Assembly (NCBI RefSeq): GCF_030412265.1
Contig: NZ_JAUHLN010000001.1
Span: 186,001-250,000, forward strand
Length of the DNA stretch: 64,000 nucleotides
From: Fictibacillus terranigra
GTDB lineage: Bacteria; Bacillota; Bacilli; Bacillales; Fictibacillaceae
Reading direction: 5' to 3'
In this document: in pieces, positions 2 through 42,576 of the stretch
Position numbering within the stretch: the stretch's first letter is position 1
How the letters are laid out: each line of letters opens with the position of its first letter
Made by a program: the position numbers and the translations under genes
Notes under the pieces: generated by a model
Databases searched by the model: none
What the model was told of the DNA's origin: nothing
The model's input: the letters and a program-made list of their open reading frames with translations, nothing else

Positions 2-361
2 ACACTCCGTCTTGACCTGGCTTCTTTCCGTGAGCTTGAAGCATTTGCTCAGTTCGGTTCTGACTTGGATAAAGCGACTCAAGCAAAACTTAACCGTGGT
101 GCGCGTACGGTTGAGGTGCTTAAACAAGGCCTTCACAAACCGCTTCGCGTAGAACTTCAAGTTGCCAGCCTTTATGCCCTCACAAGAGGATATATTGACG
201 ATGTAGCAGTTGAAGATGTCACACGTTTTGAAGAAGAGCTTCATGCTTACATGGAGACCAACTCTAAAGACGTTCTTGACCAAATCAAAACCACTGGAAA
301 ACTTCCAGAAGGCGACGAGCTGGACAATGCGATCAAAGCGTTCAAGAAAGTTTTTGCATAA
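2..361 (+). CDS. atpA: ATP synthase F1 subunit alpha, C-terminal part (truncated by window edge)
   Basis: The open frame enters from the left edge and encodes the last 119 residues of the alpha subunit, the nucleotide-binding non-catalytic subunit of the F1 head. The visible part is the C-terminal helical domain; the run [15 protein letters not shown] followed by [19 protein letters not shown] is typical of bacterial AtpA. The Walker A region lies outside the window. Genes for gamma, beta and epsilon follow in the usual order, so this is the tail of the atp operon. The 212-bp gap to atpG is longer than the other gaps in the operon and I see no gene in it. Identity is near certain from sequence and context. 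Confidence 0.97.
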
Positions 362-28187: not shown

Positions 28188-28264
28188 GTGTAAGTATAAA
28201 CATCCAATAGTTTTCGCCGATAACAAAGATAAGAAGAATTGTGAGGATTAGAGGGGGAACCAGT

Positions 28265-29095
28265 GTGCTGAGAGGATTCTATACTGCGGCTGCCGGAATG
28301 ATTGCTCAGCAGCGGCGCCAGGAAATGCTGAGCAACAACATTGCGAACACCAATACACCAGGCTATAAGGCTGATCAGTCAACTCTCAGGACGTTTCCTT
28401 CCATGCTTTTAGAACGGATCGACTCCAACGGAAAGACGCCGTTAACCAGTGCGGGCCAGAAACAGGGCGGCCAGCTGGTTACGGGCGTCTATATGCAAGA
28501 AGCGATCCCGAACTTTGTACAGGGAGATCTGCAGGAAAGCGGTGTGAACACCGATCTTGCCCTGGTTCAGGGTTCCGTCCCGATAGATAAAAAAACAGGC
28601 AAGCCTGGTTCTTTGTTCTATATGGTGGAAACAGCAGATGGGGGAACCCGCTACACCCGGAACGGGCATTTTTCCGTCGATGCCAATAATGAACTCGTGA
28701 CCACGGACGGATATTATGTCCTTGATATCAAAGGAAAACACATAACCGTTTCGGACGAGAATTTCACAGTGAGCGGAGATGGAGCCATTCTCGATCAGGG
28801 ACGCAGTGCCGGTACACTTGGAATTGCGCTGATTACAAACCCAATGGATCTGGTGAAAGAGGGGAATGGTTTATTCAGCCCGCAGGGCAATCAACAACCG
28901 GAGGCGGCTGCAGGCAATCCACAGGTGGCTTATCAGGTAAAACAAGGATTTGTTGAACGTTCCAACGTAGATGCTGAACAATCCATGACAGAAATGATGG
29001 AAGCCTACCGTTCATTTGAAGCCAATCAAAAAGTGCTTCAGGCCTATGACCGAAGCATGGAAAAGGCAGCAAACGAAGTAGGAAAGATCGGATAG
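28265..29095 (+). CDS. flhO: Flagellar hook-basal body rod protein FlhO
   Basis: The 276-residue axial protein belongs to the FlgF/FlgG rod family. The N-terminal signature LSNNIANTNTPGYKAD and the C-terminal EQSMTEMMEAYRSFEANQKVLQAYD are diagnostic. GTG at 28265 has GAGGGGG 7 bp upstream; an earlier in-frame GTG at 28241 lacks a site. It pairs with flhP 13 bp downstream. Confidence 0.93.
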   Translation: MLRGFYTAAAGMIAQQRRQEMLSNNIANTNTPGYKADQSTLRTFPSMLLERIDSNGKTPLTSAGQKQGGQLVTGVYMQEAIPNFVQGDLQESGVNTDLALVQGSVPIDKKTGKPGSLFYMVETADGGTRYTRNGHFSVDANNELVTTDGYYVLDIKGKHITVSDENFTVSGDGAILDQGRSAGTLGIALITNPMDLVKEGNGLFSPQGNQQPEAAAGNPQVAYQVKQGFVERSNVDAEQSMTEMMEAYRSFEANQKVLQAYDRSMEKAANEVGKIG

Positions 29096-29108
29096 GGAGG
29101 GACATGCG

Positions 29109-29942
29109 TTGAATACATCCATGATTAATGCTTCAGTGACCATGGTCCAGCTGCAGCAGAAACTTGATACAACAGCCCACAATATGGCGAACAGCAATAC
29201 GAATGGTTTTAAGAGAAGAAATGTCCAATTCTCTGACCTTCTTTTTCAGCAGATTGATAATAAATTTAATAATACATTTAGTAATAAGGATGAGGCTGGC
29301 CGGCTTACTCCTGCAGGAATTCGTGCGGGAAGCGGGGCAAGAGTCAGTTCGACGGCAATCAGCCTGGAGATGGGAGCGATCAAGACGACAGAACGGGCGC
29401 TCGATATCGCTCTGTTGAGCCCTGGGCTTTTTTTTCAGGTCCAGACGAGGGACAGCGGCGGAAAGGCTGTAACCGAGTACACCCGTGACGGTGCATTTTA
29501 TTTAAAAACGGCTAAAGGGCAAAACGATCTTGAACTCGTAACCTCTGATGGCAAAGCTGTAATGGGGGGTAAAGGGCCGATTCGGATTCCAGCCGGGTAC
29601 AAGGAAATTTCTATTGGACAAAACGGAAATATTTCGGTAACGTTAAGTAATGGAAGGGTGGTCAACAGCGGCAGATTGGCGGTTGTTGATGCTGTCCATC
29701 CCCAGCTGCTTGAAGCGGTGGGGCATAATTTTAGAATTCCGGCTGGTGTAAATTCAAATCAAGTGCTTCGGGCGGCAAACCCGGCCAGCGTAAAAATGCA
29801 GCAGGGTGCTCTTGAGATGTCCAACGTAAATGCAGGAAATGAAATGACGGATATCATCAATATGCAGCGATCCTACCAGTTTAACGCACGCACCATTACA
29901 ATGGCAGACCAAATGATGGGGCTCGTCAACGGAATTCGTTAA
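29109..29942 (+). CDS. flhP: Flagellar hook-basal body rod protein FlhP
   Basis: The 277-residue protein is a second FlgF/FlgG-type rod protein; B. subtilis FlhO and FlhP form the distal rod. Motifs are TTAHNMANSNTNGFKRRN near the N-terminus and SNVNAGNEMTDIINMQRSYQ near the C-terminus. TTG at 29109 follows AGGGAGGGACA. Part of the flhO-flhP unit. Confidence 0.93.
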   Translation: MNTSMINASVTMVQLQQKLDTTAHNMANSNTNGFKRRNVQFSDLLFQQIDNKFNNTFSNKDEAGRLTPAGIRAGSGARVSSTAISLEMGAIKTTERALDIALLSPGLFFQVQTRDSGGKAVTEYTRDGAFYLKTAKGQNDLELVTSDGKAVMGGKGPIRIPAGYKEISIGQNGNISVTLSNGRVVNSGRLAVVDAVHPQLLEAVGHNFRIPAGVNSNQVLRAANPASVKMQQGALEMSNVNAGNEMTDIINMQRSYQFNARTITMADQMMGLVNGIR

Positions 29943-35680: not shown

Positions 35681-35756
35681 TTTTGTCGTTCTGCGAAAAA
35701 CTCTGGTACATTAAACATAGACAACAAGTTTTTTAACAGACATGAGGAGGAATAAC

Positions 35757-36266
35757 GTGGTGAATATAAGAGAGGCGCTTCTTCGCGATTTGCCGGCTAT
35801 CTTGGACATATATAATGATGCGATAAAAACGCTGACGGCTACTTTTGATTTAGAAGAGCAAACACTAGAAGAAAGAAAGGTTTGGTTTGAAAAATACGGC
35901 GCCGGTTATCCGCTGATTGTTGCGAAACTGGACGGCAAAGTGGCGGGATACAGCTGTCTTAGCCCGTTCAGAGATAAAGCGGCGTATTCCCGCACGGTTG
36001 AATTATCATTATACATATCTTCTGAATTCCGCGGCCAAGGAATCGGCAACGCCTTAATGGGAGATATTTTGAAAAGAGCGGCCGATCTTGGCTATCATAC
36101 GGTGATCAGCAGCATTACAGGCGGGAACGAAGCGAGTGTGAAACTTCATAAAAAGTTTGGCTTTGAATTTGCCGGCAACTTTAAAGAAGTAGGCTACAAA
36201 TTCAATGAGTGGCAGGATGTCCACTTCTACCAGCTCATGCTGAACACTGAAAAAACGAAGGGATAG
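35757..36266 (+). CDS. GNAT family N-acetyltransferase (phosphinothricin acetyltransferase type)
   Basis: The 169-residue enzyme transfers acetyl from acetyl-CoA to an amine. The family pattern is clear: IREALLRDLPAILDIYNDAI at the start, the acetyl-CoA loop FRGQGIGNALM (residues near 100), and VKLHKKFGFEFAGNFKEVGYK. It is closest in type to Pat/YwnH-like enzymes acting on phosphinothricin or methionine sulfoximine; the true substrate is not certain. GTG at 35757 follows AGGAGG by 6 bp; GTG at 35760 is equally possible. It is a single gene. Confidence 0.85.
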   Translation: MVNIREALLRDLPAILDIYNDAIKTLTATFDLEEQTLEERKVWFEKYGAGYPLIVAKLDGKVAGYSCLSPFRDKAAYSRTVELSLYISSEFRGQGIGNALMGDILKRAADLGYHTVISSITGGNEASVKLHKKFGFEFAGNFKEVGYKFNEWQDVHFYQLMLNTEKTKG

Positions 36267-36288
36267 GGTTTCCCTTCGTTTTTTTTTT
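36256..36288 (+). terminator. Terminator after the acetyltransferase gene
   Basis: CGAAGGGA / TCCCTTCG stem followed by about ten T; overlaps the coding end. Confidence 0.92.
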
Positions 36289-36346
36289 GATGGCTTAGTG
36301 TGCCGAAGCGCAAGTAAATAGGGTTCTGGCCAGCATGCTGACTCTG

Positions 36347-37039
36347 TTACTGCTGATTAACAATATCCTTCAGCTTATTCTGCCATTTATTATCATCCAA
36401 AATGATCTGAAAGGAGATCCTGCGGTTCTTCTGCAGGGCTGCAGCGGAGTTTCCCTTGGCGATCGGTTTATATTCACTGTAGCCTGTGGCAGCCAGATAC
36501 TGGGCGTAAGGAAGGCGGGCAAGCTTGGGATTGGCTTGTGCAAGATATTTTACGACCGCTACTGCTCGCTCGGTGGACAAGGACCAGTTATCATAAGGCA
36601 CCGAATCAGTATGGCCCTCCACCAGAATAATATAAAGATATTTACTCATATCCTTCTCGTCTATGATGGCGGCGAGTGAATCGGCCAAAGGCTTCAGCAC
36701 CTTCTTGCCCTGTGCACTGACTTCGGCGCTCCCCGTATCGAATAAAATGTTTCCTTCTACAGATATCGTATTGTTCGGACCGCGGACCACTTTATCTTTT
36801 CCTACGTTCTTTTGAAGCTGTTTTTCAATCAAGTCGGAAATATGTTTTTTAACATCTGCGACCTGATGCAGCTCATTTTTAATCTGGGACTGGTCATAGG
36901 CATTATAAATACTCTGGACGTATGCGAGTATGGCGATGAAGATCATGATGAGTACCATCATGGCCATCATGTCCGTAAAACTGGGCCAATAGATTTCTTC
37001 CTGATGCTGTTCGGCAAACACATCTTTACGCGCACGCAA
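36347..37039 (-). CDS. MotB/OmpA-type stator protein (ZorB-like)
   Basis: The 230-residue protein has a short cytoplasmic start, one membrane helix (residues 24-42) preceded by FTDMM with Asp23 in the position of the proton-binding aspartate of MotB-type stators, a linker, and a C-terminal OmpA/MotB peptidoglycan-binding domain (ILFDTGSAEVSAQGKKVL, VEGHTDSVPYDNW, RRISFQI). It starts 6 bp after the MotA-like gene and forms a two-gene unit with it. Real flagellar motB normally pairs with a short MotA; here the partner has a long coiled-coil tail, as in ZorAB of the Zorya defence system. I see no ZorC, ZorD or ZorE. Confidence 0.85.
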   Translation of the reverse strand: MRARKDVFAEQHQEEIYWPSFTDMMAMMVLIMIFIAILAYVQSIYNAYDQSQIKNELHQVADVKKHISDLIEKQLQKNVGKDKVVRGPNNTISVEGNILFDTGSAEVSAQGKKVLKPLADSLAAIIDEKDMSKYLYIILVEGHTDSVPYDNWSLSTERAVAVVKYLAQANPKLARLPYAQYLAATGYSEYKPIAKGNSAAALQKNRRISFQIILDDNKWQNKLKDIVNQQ

Positions 37040-37045
37040 GGCACA

Positions 37046-38620
37046 TCACCGCCTTTTACTGTCATGCGAACTGATCAGCCTCGAATCATGGTCCCGCTCA
37101 CGAGAGTCATAGACTGTCTGATGCTCCACGGCTGCCTGATACATGCGCTGAAGAAGATGATACATGTCGCCAAGGGTCCGGTTGCTGCTATTAAAGTCTC
37201 GGGAAAGCCCGTGGAAAAGATTTTCCAGTGTATGGGCAAGCTCTCTCATATCGTCTCCCCGATGCGGACCGGATTGCTGGCTGAGCTGCCGTTCCCTCTC
37301 CAGCACATTTCGGATCTGCTCGACAAAATCGCGCTTCATATGTTCGACAGCATTGTAGAAGCCCTTTTCAAGCTGCTGGACGGAAGATGCAAAATCTGCC
37401 GCAGCTCTGCCGTATTCCCCTTGTTTTTCGGAGTAGCGGTAATACCATTCCTCCTGTTTTTGGCCCAGCCGGCTCTCCAGTGCGTCATGCTGGTTGGCAT
37501 AGTGCTGCAGCTGCTCTTGAAGAGCCCGTGCCATGTTTCCGGCGAATTCTTCCGAGCGTCGCTGTGTTTCAGCGAGCACTTTATCTGACCGCTGAATCAG
37601 AAGTTCAAAGGTTTGCTGTCCTGCATTCTGGCGGTCTGCGCTTTTTTGCAGCTGCTGCTCGAATGAATTGATCTGGGCGGTCAGCACGGAAATGCTTTGG
37701 TCGACCGCTTTATGCATGGTATCCTGCTTTTCGATCGTTTTATGAAACTGGACGCCGAACTGTTCAAGGGTAGATGCAGAAGCCGCAAATGACTCGGTGT
37801 GCAGCCGCTGTGCCTCTAATATGCCTTTGACGTCCTCCATGGCGGTTTTTAAACCGGCAGTAAATTCAGTCATCGATTTGCCAAAATGACCTACACTTCT
37901 TTCAAAGCTCTCCTCCACTTTCGCTGCAAGGCGGTCAAGCAGCCGTTCAGCCGAGTCCTGGGGCTTTTCTTGCAGCAGAAGACTGTTAAATGTGTGGTCA
38001 AGGTAAACTTCGCAATCTGTCATGACCTTTCCCTGCAGGTACGTAAGGGAAGCCCCTCTGGACAAAAATCCCGCCTGAAGGATGTTGAGGATAAGGGATC
38101 CTCCGATCCCGGCGATACTTGTAATAAAAGCGACGCTCATTCCCTCAAATGGAGCGGTCAGGGATGAGATGATGGAGTTCATGGTCATACTCGGCCCGGC
38201 GGCAGAACTTCCGAGCCTGAAGAGCGTATCCTGCATGGAAAGCAGGGATAGGGTGAGGCCAATAAAAGTGCCGAGCACACCCAGGATAATCGTAAAGGCG
38301 GGCAGCTGCTGAAGAACCTTTTGAATATTCCCAACAGGGACGCGCAGCAGTCCAAGAAGAGGAATCCGTTCCTGATAAAGGTGCTTTTCGATCAATGCCT
38401 GTGTATTTAAGGAAGAAACACCTGAGAGATGATACTGCCTGTAATCTGCGCATACTCGCTGAATCCAGCGGGAACGGGGCTGTGCAGCTCCCTGCGATTC
38501 CAGCTCCTGCAGCTCCCTCATCCACACTCTCAGGCGGTAACCTGTCTGGGCATATCCGGCCAATCCAGTTAACACAAGAAAACCAATCAACCCCACAACG
38601 GCCATCGTCAATGAATCCAT
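37046..38620 (-). CDS. MotA/TolQ/ExbB-type channel protein with long coiled-coil tail (ZorA-like)
   Basis: The 524-residue protein has membrane helices at about 3-24, 107-128 and 160-184, the latter two forming the ExbB/TolQ core (ILGVLGTFIGLTLSLL; FEGMSVAFITSIAGIGGSL). From residue 190 to the end it is a long charged helical region rich in Gln, Glu and Arg, expected to be a coiled coil. MotA and ExbB lack such a tail; ZorA has one. ATG at 38620 is chosen from a GGGGGA site; the frame stays open upstream through repeat copy C, which is not coding. Its likely role is a proton-driven motor with the OmpA-type partner; anti-phage activity is only an inference. Confidence 0.82.
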   Translation of the reverse strand: MDSLTMAVVGLIGFLVLTGLAGYAQTGYRLRVWMRELQELESQGAAQPRSRWIQRVCADYRQYHLSGVSSLNTQALIEKHLYQERIPLLGLLRVPVGNIQKVLQQLPAFTIILGVLGTFIGLTLSLLSMQDTLFRLGSSAAGPSMTMNSIISSLTAPFEGMSVAFITSIAGIGGSLILNILQAGFLSRGASLTYLQGKVMTDCEVYLDHTFNSLLLQEKPQDSAERLLDRLAAKVEESFERSVGHFGKSMTEFTAGLKTAMEDVKGILEAQRLHTESFAASASTLEQFGVQFHKTIEKQDTMHKAVDQSISVLTAQINSFEQQLQKSADRQNAGQQTFELLIQRSDKVLAETQRRSEEFAGNMARALQEQLQHYANQHDALESRLGQKQEEWYYRYSEKQGEYGRAAADFASSVQQLEKGFYNAVEHMKRDFVEQIRNVLERERQLSQQSGPHRGDDMRELAHTLENLFHGLSRDFNSSNRTLGDMYHLLQRMYQAAVEHQTVYDSRERDHDSRLISSHDSKRR

Positions 38621-38656
38621 GCTGTCCAATCCCCCCGTTTCCATACAAGCATATGA

Positions 38657-38707
38657 GGTGCCAGGCACCCCTATTACACAAGTATGTAACGCTCGGTGCC
38701 AGGCACC
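38657..38707. repeat. Nested-palindrome repeat, copy C (core TTACACAAGTATGTAA)
   Basis: Two GGTGCCAGGCACC units (38657-38669 and 38695-38707) flank the core. It lies between the divergent ZorA-like and subtilase genes, so unlike most copies it is upstream of both and cannot be a terminator for either. Confidence 0.88.
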
Positions 38708-38832
38708 GAGCAAAAAAAAATAAATTGCGATTTCTGAATAATGGAATTAAACTAAAAATATGGAAATTTCAGTTTGATAGGCAACAGGATCATTCACCCA
38801 GGAAAATCTATACACAGAAAAGGGGAAACTGG

Positions 38833-41800
38833 ATGAAGAAACGGATTGCGTTGATGACAGCATTTATCATGACGTTTTCCAACCTGGCTTATGCCCAGGG
38901 GAACTTGCCGTCTCAAAGCAAGGCAGCGGGAACAAAGCCACTGGGCCTTGATTTGAAAAAACTGCCTCAAGAAGAGAAGTACGGCAAAAATGAGAAGGTT
39001 CGTGTGGTCGTCGAACTTGATCAAAAGCCAGCAATTCAGTACGCACAGGCCCAAAACAAGCGCTACAGTGCTCTGAGTACAGGCGAAAAAACGTCGCTCA
39101 ACAAAAAACTGGCGAGTGAACAAAAAGAAGTGAAAGAAGACATCGCGAAGGAAGACATCACGGTATCGTATAAGGAAAGCTTTACAACCGTACTTAACGG
39201 CTTCAGCGGCGAAGTCAAATATAGCGATATTAAAGATATTGAAAAACTTGATGGTGTAAAAGAGGTACATATTGCGCATGAGTATAAGCGTCCCGAATCA
39301 ATCAAAGGGGACAAGCCGAACATGCTGTACAGCAAGGATATCGTCAATGCGAAGCAAACATGGCAGGACTATGGCTATAAAGGAGAAGGAACAATCGTGG
39401 CGGTCATCGACACAGGCATCGATCCTTCTCATAAGGACATGGTGCTCAGCCCTGATACAAAGGTAAAGCTGACACCGGGGAAAGTGAACAGCATCAAAGA
39501 CTCAAAAGGACTTAAAGGCAACTATTTCACAGAAAAAGTACCGTATGGATACAACTATGCGGACCATGACAAAGAAATCCGCGATCTTGGACCAGATGCT
39601 TCCATGCACGGCATGCATGTTGCGGGAATCGCCGGTGCCAACGGGGACGAAGACAATGGCGGAATTAAAGGGGTAGCTCCTGAAGCACAGCTTTTGGCGC
39701 TTAAAGTATTCGGAAACGACCCTGGAATGCCCTCCACGTTCAGTGATATTTACATTAAAGCGATCGACGATGCGATTGCCCTCGGCGCTGATGTGATCAA
39801 CATGAGCCTTGGATCTGCTGCCGCTTTCGTTCAGCACGATGACCCTGAAGAAAAAGCGATCCAGAACGCGACAAACAATGGTATTCTTTGTGCCATATCT
39901 GCAGGAAACTCTGCTTACGCAGGACATGGTGCCGGCAATCCTTTCCCATCCAACCCGGATACAGGAGTGGTTGGTTCCCCTGGATTGATCGGACAAGCTC
40001 TTCAGGTCGCTTCCCTTGAGAACACCAAGCTTACACTCGAAGGGATGAACTTAAAGGCAGACGGAGCGGATATGGGGTACATTGCCTACCAAAAGCAGGA
40101 TTCTCCAAATCCGATTGACACGTTTGAAAAAGATAAAATGGAAGTAGTGTACGCCGGTGACGGAAGCCCTGCCAACTATACTGGAAAAGACGTCAAGGGA
40201 AAAGTCGTTTTCGTTGTCCGAAACGGAGATTTCAACTACTCGATGATTCAGAAAGAAGCTGAAAAACAAGGCGCTGCAGGTGTGATTATCCGCGGCAGGG
40301 TAGATCATGGCGATTACGTCAGCATGGCCCTTAACAAACCGACGATCCCTATCGTTTCTCTAAGCATTGCAGACGGCGACCAGCTCGAAGCAAAGGCGAA
40401 AGAAGGCAAGAAACTGGAAGTCATTTTTGACGGCAAAGCCGTTTCAACAAATAACCCGACGGCTGGAGAGATGTCTGATTTCAGTTCTTGGGGCGTAACG
40501 CCGAACCTTGACTTTAAACCAGAGATCACGGCACCAGGCGGAAAAATTTATTCTACGCTTAACGACAACCAATATGGCGTTAAAAGCGGTACTTCCATGG
40601 CTGCTCCGCATGTTGCCGGCGGTGCTGCACTCGTGATGGAAAGAATCGACAAGGATTTCAGAGTTAAAGGGGCAGCACGCGTTAAACTCGCGAAAAATAT
40701 TCTAATGAACACTTCAAGGCCGCAAACGGACCATGGCTTGTTCAATACTGAGAGCCAGACTGGAAACTACTATTCTCCACGCCTTGAGGGTGCAGGGGTA
40801 ATGGACCTTCATGCAGCAATGAAAACTCCTGTAGTGGTAACCGAATCAAAGTCAGGTGAAGGAAAAGCCGCTGTAAAAGAGGTTGGCGATAAATTTACCT
40901 TTACGTTAAATCTTAAAAACTACAGCACGAAGGACGTAACTTACAAGCTTGCCGGAACGGTTCAAACGGACCTTGCTCTTCTTAACATGAACCTCCTTGA
41001 AGCTGACGGCATCTTTAAAAATGGAACAAGAGATTCAGAGGATCCGAATAAAGGAACATTCCCAATTTCCTTTACTTCCGGTTCCAAAAAAGCAAGCAGC
41101 ATTACGATTAAAGCGAAAGGCACAGCCACTGTAAATGTTACGGTCGATCTTAAAGATACGGTAGATTGGGCAAATGACATGCCGCTTGATAAAATCTTCA
41201 AAAACGGCTACTTTGTTGAAGGTTTTGTAAGATTAATAGATGCGGGCAGTAAGCACCCCGAACTAAGTGTTCCTTACGTGGGTTTCCATGGAAAATGGGA
41301 CAAAGCGCCGATCATCGATGCTCCTGTATACGATGACAACACGTTCTATGGAGTGACGGGACTCGCTGCTGAAGTCAACGAAGACTTTGAGTTCCTTGGA
41401 AGCGATGCATTGAAAAATGTGCTGAAAGACAAAGTTTCCTTCTCTCCGGATGGAGACGGTCTCTATGATGAAGCTTTCCCTGTGCTTTCCTTCCTAAGAA
41501 ACGCGAAAAAAGTAGAATACTCGATCCTTGACCGAAATAAAACATCACTCCGCAAATTGGATACACAAGACGATGTTGTGAAGAACTATTATGACAACGG
41601 TGATGACCCTGGTTATACTCCTGTCACGGAGGCTGCTTGGGATGGATCGGTCAATGGTTCTAAAGTAAAAGACGGATTGTACTACTACCAAGTACGTTCA
41701 GTGGTTGACTACCCGAAAGCAAAATGGCAAAAGGCATTGTTCCCTGTGTATGTCGATACGAAGGATCCTGCAGTGACTGCCAAATGGAACGCGGATAATG

Positions 41801-42576
41801 ACACGCTTTCATGGACGGCTGGCGACCAGGGAACAGGCGTAGCCTACTACGATGTTTTAGTGAACGGAAAAAGCGTTCTTTCCAAGCCGCTTGATTCTTC
41901 TGCCAGCGAATATAAGCTGAATGACCTCCCTAGCCGTGCAAAAGTGGTCCTTGCTGCTTACGATTATGCAGGAAACTCAGTGATGAAAAATGTCAATATG
42001 AGCGGGAAAGATACTAGTGTTCCCAGTGTTTCTGTAGATTCTCCCGAAGCCTTAAGCATCACTTCTTCCAAGACAGTGACTGTAACCGGACATGTCACGG
42101 ATGAATCTGGTATTAAGTCATTCATGATCGACGGCAAACCTGTAAAGCTTGTATGGAATGCAGCAAAACAGCAGTACGACTTCAGCAAAAAAATCACCTA
42201 TACTTCGGATAATATTCAATCGTTTAAGGTGGAAGCGATCGATAAAAGCGGAAATCGAGTGGCCTTCAGCCGCAAGGTGATTGTCGACTCCACGCTTCCG
42301 ACGATAAAAGTAGATGCACCAAAAACGGTTTCAAGCAAAACGAAAACAGCAACTCTCAACATTACGCTTGCAGACAACTATGATGAGATGCGCTTCTTCG
42401 TAAACGACAATGCGGCATACCGCCATTACTTTAAAGAGCCGTTTGCAAAGAGAGCATTAACGAAAAAAATCAGCCAAAAAGTTTCCCTGAAAAAAGGTAA
42501 AAACACCGTTCATCTTGAACTGACAGACATTGGCGGAAACACGGTTGAGAAGAACGTAACGATCACAAAGAAATAA
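38833..42576 (+). CDS. Large secreted subtilisin-family serine protease (Vpr/lactocepin type)
   Basis: The 1247-residue preproprotein has a signal peptide (KKRIALMTAFIMTFSNLAYA), an inhibitor I9-like propeptide to about residue 160, and a subtilase domain with triad Asp193 (VIDTGID), His259 (HGMHVAGIAG) and Ser588 (GTSMAAP). A PA domain is inserted between His and Ser (roughly residues 400-510). Beyond 650 lie beta-sandwich domains of Fn3 or Ig type, and a repeat PSVSVDSPEAL/PTIKVDAPKTV near the C-terminus. B. subtilis Vpr is about 800 residues, so this one has a longer tail. ATG at 38833 follows AGGGGAAACTGG; the open frame upstream runs into the neighbouring gene and is not used. Confidence 0.93.
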   Translation: MKKRIALMTAFIMTFSNLAYAQGNLPSQSKAAGTKPLGLDLKKLPQEEKYGKNEKVRVVVELDQKPAIQYAQAQNKRYSALSTGEKTSLNKKLASEQKEVKEDIAKEDITVSYKESFTTVLNGFSGEVKYSDIKDIEKLDGVKEVHIAHEYKRPESIKGDKPNMLYSKDIVNAKQTWQDYGYKGEGTIVAVIDTGIDPSHKDMVLSPDTKVKLTPGKVNSIKDSKGLKGNYFTEKVPYGYNYADHDKEIRDLGPDASMHGMHVAGIAGANGDEDNGGIKGVAPEAQLLALKVFGNDPGMPSTFSDIYIKAIDDAIALGADVINMSLGSAAAFVQHDDPEEKAIQNATNNGILCAISAGNSAYAGHGAGNPFPSNPDTGVVGSPGLIGQALQVASLENTKLTLEGMNLKADGADMGYIAYQKQDSPNPIDTFEKDKMEVVYAGDGSPANYTGKDVKGKVVFVVRNGDFNYSMIQKEAEKQGAAGVIIRGRVDHGDYVSMALNKPTIPIVSLSIADGDQLEAKAKEGKKLEVIFDGKAVSTNNPTAGEMSDFSSWGVTPNLDFKPEITAPGGKIYSTLNDNQYGVKSGTSMAAPHVAGGAALVMERIDKDFRVKGAARVKLAKNILMNTSRPQTDHGLFNTESQTGNYYSPRLEGAGVMDLHAAMKTPVVVTESKSGEGKAAVKEVGDKFTFTLNLKNYSTKDVTYKLAGTVQTDLALLNMNLLEADGIFKNGTRDSEDPNKGTFPISFTSGSKKASSITIKAKGTATVNVTVDLKDTVDWANDMPLDKIFKNGYFVEGFVRLIDAGSKHPELSVPYVGFHGKWDKAPIIDAPVYDDNTFYGVTGLAAEVNEDFEFLGSDALKNVLKDKVSFSPDGDGLYDEAFPVLSFLRNAKKVEYSILDRNKTSLRKLDTQDDVVKNYYDNGDDPGYTPVTEAAWDGSVNGSKVKDGLYYYQVRSVVDYPKAKWQKALFPVYVDTKDPAVTAKWNADNDTLSWTAGDQGTGVAYYDVLVNGKSVLSKPLDSSASEYKLNDLPSRAKVVLAAYDYAGNSVMKNVNMSGKDTSVPSVSVDSPEALSITSSKTVTVTGHVTDESGIKSFMIDGKPVKLVWNAAKQQYDFSKKITYTSDNIQSFKVEAIDKSGNRVAFSRKVIVDSTLPTIKVDAPKTVSSKTKTATLNITLADNYDEMRFFVNDNAAYRHYFKEPFAKRALTKKISQKVSLKKGKNTVHLELTDIGGNTVEKNVTITKK

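Follow-up and report, generated by a model that had tools for sequence, protein, structure and literature searches.

A two-gene unit of Fictibacillus terranigra, lying in a 64,000-nucleotide stretch of DNA (the window), encodes a ZorAB-type motor that is real and conserved and has no recognised Zorya effectors; it is probably a core machine of the cell envelope. To our knowledge, the only role described for ZorAB is to power a phage-defence system, and the pair points to an undescribed use of this type of motor. We regard it as an evenly balanced proposition that the two genes specify a vertically inherited, effectorless motor, ion-driven and of 5:2 composition, which works for the envelope of the cell itself, possibly in the sporulating mother cell.

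Both reading frames are found where the original prediction had placed them (Table 1), and they form a tight unit with zorA first and a gap of 6 bp. Hydropathy analysis of the ZorA-like protein (P0001) gave membrane segments at approximately residues 4-22, 109-127 and 163-181, with a fourth window (169-187) overlapping the third; as the last of the three segments ends near residue 181, the tail that follows it comprises ~343 residues, close to the claimed length of ~330. The charged-helix character of this tail is suggested by inspection of the sequence and by weak coiled-coil matches. The ZorB-like protein (P0002) has a single hydropathic segment at residues 24-42, headed by Asp23 as predicted, and its OmpA domain is recognised by Pfam (PF00691, 6e-12). 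The flanking acetyltransferase and subtilase genes do lie on the strand opposite to zorAB.

Table 1. Positions in the window of the zorAB unit, its parts and its neighbours.
Feature	Position	Strand	Description
zorA-like gene	37046..38620	minus	524 aa, ATG start; three predicted membrane helices, long tail
zorB-like gene	36347..37039	minus	230 aa, predicted TTG start; one membrane helix, Asp23
ZorB-like OmpA-type domain	residues 99-206 of the 230-aa protein		
Conserved ZorA-tail stretch (residues 387-435)	37316..37462	minus	among the two best-conserved tail stretches; may bind a partner or act as a hinge
Candidate zorA promoter	38647..38676	minus	TAATA (38672-38676), 16 bp, CATATGCTT (38647-38655); putatively sigma-E/sigma-K-like
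Acetyltransferase gene	35742-36266	plus	below NCBIfam cut-offs
Subtilase-type protein gene	38785 to 42576	plus	below NCBIfam cut-offs

As had been proposed, the pair resembles Zorya ZorA/ZorB more closely in similarity searches than it does flagellar MotA/MotB. PADLOC models matched P0001 as ZorA1 (7.7e-12) and ZorA3 (1.6e-11) and P0002 as ZorB1 (9.7e-36). When a profile of 31 ZorA-like proteins was compared with solved structures, the top match was Shewanella ZorA (8vvn, 3.3e-18), and E. coli ZorA (8qyd) was recovered at 4.2e-07; the 41 other structure matches were mostly coiled coils or helical bundles and were little informative. A profile of 32 ZorB proteins, which includes one annotated E. 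coli ZorB2, ranked the ZorB of 8vvi (1.7e-42), 8vvn (8.8e-31) and 8qyd (1e-26) first, with flagellar MotB after all three, and a search of the PDB with P0001 as a single sequence found no ZorA. The profile searches thus place Zorya nearer than MotAB, while the curated Zorya cut-offs of NCBIfam are far from reached, both for ZorA (NF033915 41.3 of 100 bits, NF033914 22.4 of 190, NF041792 16.6 of 700) and for ZorB (NF041788 36.3 of 400 bits, NF041787 31.4 of 400); among NCBIfam families, P0002 scores best with a peptidoglycan-binding one, at 95.5 against a cut-off of 305.

Type I and type II Zorya, as represented by PDB 8VVN, 8VVI and 8QYD and described in PMC11890865, have the same gene order and pairing, and share with the Fictibacillus proteins a three-helix ZorA with a long tail, the ZorB Asp, the Ser/Thr ring residues and the peptidoglycan-binding residues. 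The ZorA extensions given there span 236-696 for type I and 100-378 for type II, and the Fictibacillus tail falls between the two. Zorya differs in that it carries ZorC/ZorD or ZorE, whereas none of these is recognised beside the Fictibacillus pair, which is fixed in two families. MotA-MotB and ExbBD/TolQR belong to the same superfamily of pentamer-dimer ion motors, within which MotB also has an OmpA-type anchor (PMC12505986); the pair differs from them in its long tail and in the failure of P0001 to be listed under Pfam MotA_ExbB, either at E values up to 5 or genome-wide at 0.001. In a whole-genome search the MotA_ExbB match lay elsewhere, in one gene with a 290-aa frame.

Six residues of ZorB (Asp23, His143, Leu154, Arg158, Arg206 and Arg207) are invariant in 32 of 32 aligned proteins, and seven of ZorA (G114, G117, T118, F119, G121, T167 and S168) in 31 of 31, so that the ion-path features of Zorya i.e. 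an Asp in ZorB (D23) and a Ser/Thr ring in ZorA (T118, T167, S168) are present. According to PMC11890865, the ZorB Asp is required for Zorya defence, and H186, L199, R203, R254 and R259 of ZorB I are required for peptidoglycan binding and defence; when mapped by spacing and alignment, the invariant ZorB residues appear in line with those needed in Zorya. ZorA and ZorB are under strong purifying selection, with dN/dS values of 0.053 for ZorA against a 91 percent identical relative and 0.032 in a second comparison, and of 0.028 for ZorB against the 91 percent identical relative, its only unsaturated comparison. Within the tail, residues 387-435 have a dN of 0 against the 91 percent identical relative and 0.017 against another, and across 18 close-group ZorA proteins the mean majority is 0.69 in bin 381-400, 0.71 in bin 401-420 and 0.70 in bin 221-240.

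All 34 genomes of the family Fictibacillaceae have homologues, with a single gene in each provided that the split matches in two of them count as one gene, and so do all 15 genomes of a second family (f21). This distribution, together with the low dN/dS, indicates that the pair is not a product of chance. In a sample of the order, 57 of 299 genomes matched at 0.001: the close type, scoring 327.8 bits or more, was present in 30, and the remaining 27 had a distant type alone, in 590-656-aa frames. The close type was found in 3/3, 2/2 and 1/2 genomes of families f4, f18 and f8, and it is patchy in f15 (2/11). A strict profile search matched at least 9 of 398 genomes of the class and at least 11 of 398 of the phylum; these are lower bounds because the search used an E value of 1e-10 and a mixed profile, with a maximum of three candidates scored per genome. 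The close pair had no match in 72,556 plasmid records, 50,697 phage records or viral contigs. Plasmids do carry more distant ZorB-like genes, among them an E. coli zorA2-zorB2-zorE locus. The patchy, island- or plasmid-borne distribution typical of Zorya is therefore not that of this pair, whose two members look like vertically inherited core genes of their lineage.

SpoIVA, used here as a marker of sporulation, is present in all nine ZorA-positive genomes of the class sample and in 267 of 398 overall, for which the chance expectation is 0.67^9, or ~0.03 with kinship ignored. The co-occurrence is weak, as 288 of the 299 genomes of the order sample sporulate by this marker, and a comparison of sporulators with non-sporulators has little power. 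The pair is absent from most of the sporulating Bacilli searched and is therefore not a general sporulation gene.

ZorA and ZorB are adjacent in all 45 loci compared (the window, 24 close-type and 20 distant-type loci). In 12 of 12 loci read from families f4, f8, f15, f18 and f21, drawn from the 19 such genomes of the order sample, sigK, the gene for the late mother-cell sigma factor, lies 0.6-5.4 kb from zorA; its identity was confirmed by NCBIfam for one cluster member (4e-124). No sigK was found near zorA in the 13 own-family loci read or in six further loci (L127-L132). The linkage is probably one inherited arrangement and is a sign of descent, not proof of a functional link. The same 12 loci all contain a small unassigned gene, which in 11 lies just beyond zorB, and in nine of them genes of the cystathionine gamma-lyase and cysteine-synthase types are near the pair. 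At L069:12601-15362, sigK is split into pieces of 128 and 131 aa by a 492-aa gene that by eye resembles a serine recombinase, an arrangement like that of skin-type excision.

The surroundings within the pair's own family are different. Two genes of the flagellar rod type (28241-29942) stand in the window ~6.4 kb from zorB on the opposite strand, in an mbl-linked block that places rod-type genes and mbl 6.4-9.2 kb from the pair, with spoIID farther away; the rod-gene cluster recurs in five other own-family loci and is absent from the other 39. In one genus of the family (g4, loci L059-L062) a nuclease-domain protein is encoded divergently upstream of zorA in four of four loci, with a PLD-like protein beyond it in three, and both appear to be secreted or membrane-bound, although they may be linked to the pair. 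The divergent protein is 1098-1116 aa long and secreted-looking, with domains of the SNase, metallophosphatase and 5'-nucleotidase types in the one member tested. All four loci also have a Spo0E-like gene (PF09388 in the one tested) on the same strand as zorA, 317-705 bp upstream of it, and the divergent SNase/phosphoesterase gene is situated beyond this gene.

Judged by the features tested, the pair is not a Zorya system. Homologues of ZorA and ZorB do stand side by side, as in Zorya. Genes within ~20 kb of the window pair and of 24 other close-type loci were clustered, and part of the neighbours were scanned; the recurrent neighbours identified were housekeeping genes and sigK, plus the Spo0E-like, SNase-domain and PLD-like genes of genus g4, and among them no Zorya effector gene (ZorC with ZorD, ZorE or the type III partners) was recognised. 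The prediction that no ZorC, ZorD or ZorE adjoins the pair is supported to that extent. The ZorC-type EH_Signature was found in 0 of 34 family genomes, a count to be read with the fact that control genomes gave no match either, and ZorE-like matches were weak, occurring in 3 of 34 family genomes and not in the pair's own. Effectors encoded elsewhere, one of the options originally offered, are only weakly disfavoured by these counts. A reduced defence system, another of them, is disfavoured by the presence of the pair in all searched genomes of two families, by its conserved chromosomal neighbours and by the lack of a plasmid or phage match; a mobile defence island is disfavoured on distribution. 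The remaining option, an undescribed cell-envelope machine, gives the best fit.

In a by-genus alignment, a conserved CATA element was found upstream of zorA. The pattern CATAnnn[AT] occurs 15-60 bp before zorA at 48 of 49 loci, as against 58 of 305 other upstream regions (49 of 294 when sigK is left out of the controls), and among the 18 gene clusters of five or more members, a set that contains sigK, a frequency of 0.8 or more was reached by just two, sigK (9/11) and a methyltransferase-like cluster (0.88 of 8). CATA is also the only 4-mer present upstream of zorA in 11 of 11 lineages; on resampling with one locus per lineage, 1.9 were expected for CATA, and any 4-mer reached 11 in 0.12 percent of 5000 runs. 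The same CATA is the -10 core at spoIVA and sigK in these genomes, and PMC517825 gives sigma-E and sigma-K the same -10 and a -35 that differs in one base.

As a positive control we used spoIVA in the same genomes, where [TG]CATA-N14-16-CATA was found in 15 of 27 loci. The motif trained on these loci is partly a matter of construction, as the pattern demanded CAT[AG], GACAA and CATA and the 12 loci with no site under it were dropped from training. In 20 spoIVA loci, CATA lay 15-60 bp before the start taken in 55 percent and 15-110 bp before it in 90 percent. At zorA the spoIVA-trained two-box model gave a median empirical p of 0.16, individually unremarkable, and combined Fisher p values of 0.0046 (14 lineages) and 0.0015 (19 loci); the model has little power either way, because the sigK loci used as positive controls also scored poorly with it (11 loci, p 0.025-0.98). 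A matrix built from the consensus put the window promoter in the top 1 percent of 295 controls and other loci at 4-66 percent, and the spoIVA-trained matrix (15 of 27 loci) was no better. Both two-box models are therefore weak, the -35 match is poor in several lineages, and a clean two-box sigma-E/K match upstream of zorA was not upheld.

Six loci fetched after the idea had formed (L127-L132) had CATA in the set window in three cases, for which the chance is 0.06-0.21 depending on the base rate; L133 and L134, which are of distant type or cut, were excluded from this later check. When 21 of the 49 upstream regions were searched for paired elements, CAAG-N14-17-CATA turned up in 5 of 11 lineages, and 60 shuffle runs gave at most 4; this pairing is suggestive only. 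No sigma-70-type promoter was found in 36240-38900, as against 2.7 (sd 1.6) in shuffles, a difference that is not significant alone. Near some of the zorA upstream sites we noticed by eye GGACAA, which is SpoIIID-like. At L132 (genome G326) the sequence upstream of zorA, CCATATTTTGTCTTCCTCCCACATATGTAT, is closely like the spoIVA promoter of genome G075, TCATATTTTGTGGACAACATCATATGTAT. Two copies of GGTGCCAGGCACC (38657-38669 and 38695-38707) lie by the zorA promoter of the window, one of them within its presumed spacer; they occur also in two near relatives and are absent from the other Fictibacillus loci compared.

That sigma-E or sigma-K transcribes zorAB in the mother cell during sporulation is a tentative proposal, which we put a little below even. 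The full reading of the pair as a sporulation machine is more doubtful again: the motor would be made in the mother cell under sigma-E/sigma-K, sit in the membrane surrounding the forespore, grip forespore peptidoglycan and use an ion gradient to drive a cytoplasmic rod, and it would share a common ancestor with the Zorya motors. It competes with a machine of the vegetative envelope, which would sense or act on peptidoglycan in growing or stressed cells and have no tie to sporulation. Core status and conserved residues suit that alternative equally well, most spore-formers do without the pair (close type in 30/299), the promoter model is weak and CATA was found in only half of the loci checked later. 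The conserved CATA element, which agrees with the -10 core that spoIVA and sigK have in these genomes, speaks against it, as do the lack of a sigma-70-type site, for what that is worth alone, and the sigK neighbourhood in five families, and we consider a purely vegetative role unlikely.

An innate, fixed anti-phage system, in which ZorAB would act as it does in Zorya, either with effectors that are unlinked or not recognised or by itself as an ion-leak device, would account for the similarity to ZorA and ZorB, and other ZorAB units described below, with an NYN-domain gene directly upstream or in variable surroundings, fit it too, as do the nuclease-domain and PLD-like genes of genus g4. PMC11890865, however, describes for the Zorya types a differential distribution across strains, as is typical of anti-phage systems, and a loss of protection on deletion of any component, whereas this pair is chromosomal, is present in all searched genomes of two families and has no recognised effector beside it; with the near absence of ZorC and ZorE signals (silent controls noted), a defence role seems improbable. 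Far less probable still is an accessory MotAB i.e. a flagellar or gliding stator. P0002 matches the flagellar MotB family PRK07734 (4.1e-20), as a single sequence it finds the MotB-type structures 8ucs and 6ysf ahead of 8vvn, and rod-type genes stand near zorB. Those genes, however, belong to the mbl-linked block on the other strand and are missing from most loci, the ZorB1 match of P0002 beats MotB, and P0001 shows neither the MotA_ExbB match nor the four-helix form of ~270-290 aa by which a stator MotA would be recognised. MotA has four membrane helices against the three of this ZorA, which also has the long tail, and the MotA_ExbB gene of the genome is a different one. A flagellar stator is accordingly disfavoured.

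For the ZorAB-type envelope motor that we prefer, we infer the 5:2 assembly, the rotation and the tail rod from the known ZorAB structures. ZorB would be anchored to peptidoglycan through its OmpA-type domain, ion flow past Asp23 and past the ring residues of ZorA near Thr118 and Ser168 would turn ZorA, and the tail would pass rotation or a change of shape into the cytoplasm, where residues 387-435 may contact a partner encoded elsewhere. If sigma-E or sigma-K transcribes the pair, the motor would lie in the membrane of the mother cell or in the outer membrane of the forespore, and there it would face peptidoglycan of the cortex or of the engulfment zone.

An effectorless ZorAB fixed in whole families of spore-formers would show this type of motor doing ordinary cell work and would help to root the defence system among housekeeping machines. 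It would also warn that matches to ZorA and ZorB alone should not be counted as Zorya. Searches of the open-access literature gave no report of this zorAB unit or of a rotary motor, powered by ions, that takes part in making endospores; the possible link with sporulation emerged from the present analysis and is offered as a lead. If it is true, such a motor would take part in endospore formation, and if the sporulation-machine reading is true, the Zorya defence motors and a developmental motor would stem from one ancestor.

The same order also contains longer orphan ZorAB units (L075-L092), with ZorA frames of 588-634 aa and variable gene surroundings. Like the window pair they consist of two genes with no recognised effector, and their ZorB belongs to the ZorB1 family (L081, 2.1e-72); they differ in that their ZorA is only 15-20 percent identical to P0001 and in having a conserved upstream block of their own. 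This block, CATGATTTGTCC-N7-GAATA or GCATGATTTGTCC-N7-GAATA, is constant despite unrelated surroundings. Of the 14 genomes searched, 10 had it exactly once (L097-L106), each time ~50-190 bp upstream of that genome's zorA, and a reversed control pattern was never found in the 14.

Two genomes that hold the close-type pair also contain a three-gene unit (L093:7110-11188 and L094:6837-10953, minus strand) in which a gene for an NYN-domain protein of 478-480 aa (PF01936, 2.2e-13 and 7.4e-14) is followed by a distinct ZorA and ZorB. The position of this gene directly upstream of a distinct ZorAB type suggests that effector swapping may occur in the superfamily, and the unit may represent a Zorya-like system, so far undescribed, whose effector is the NYN-domain protein.
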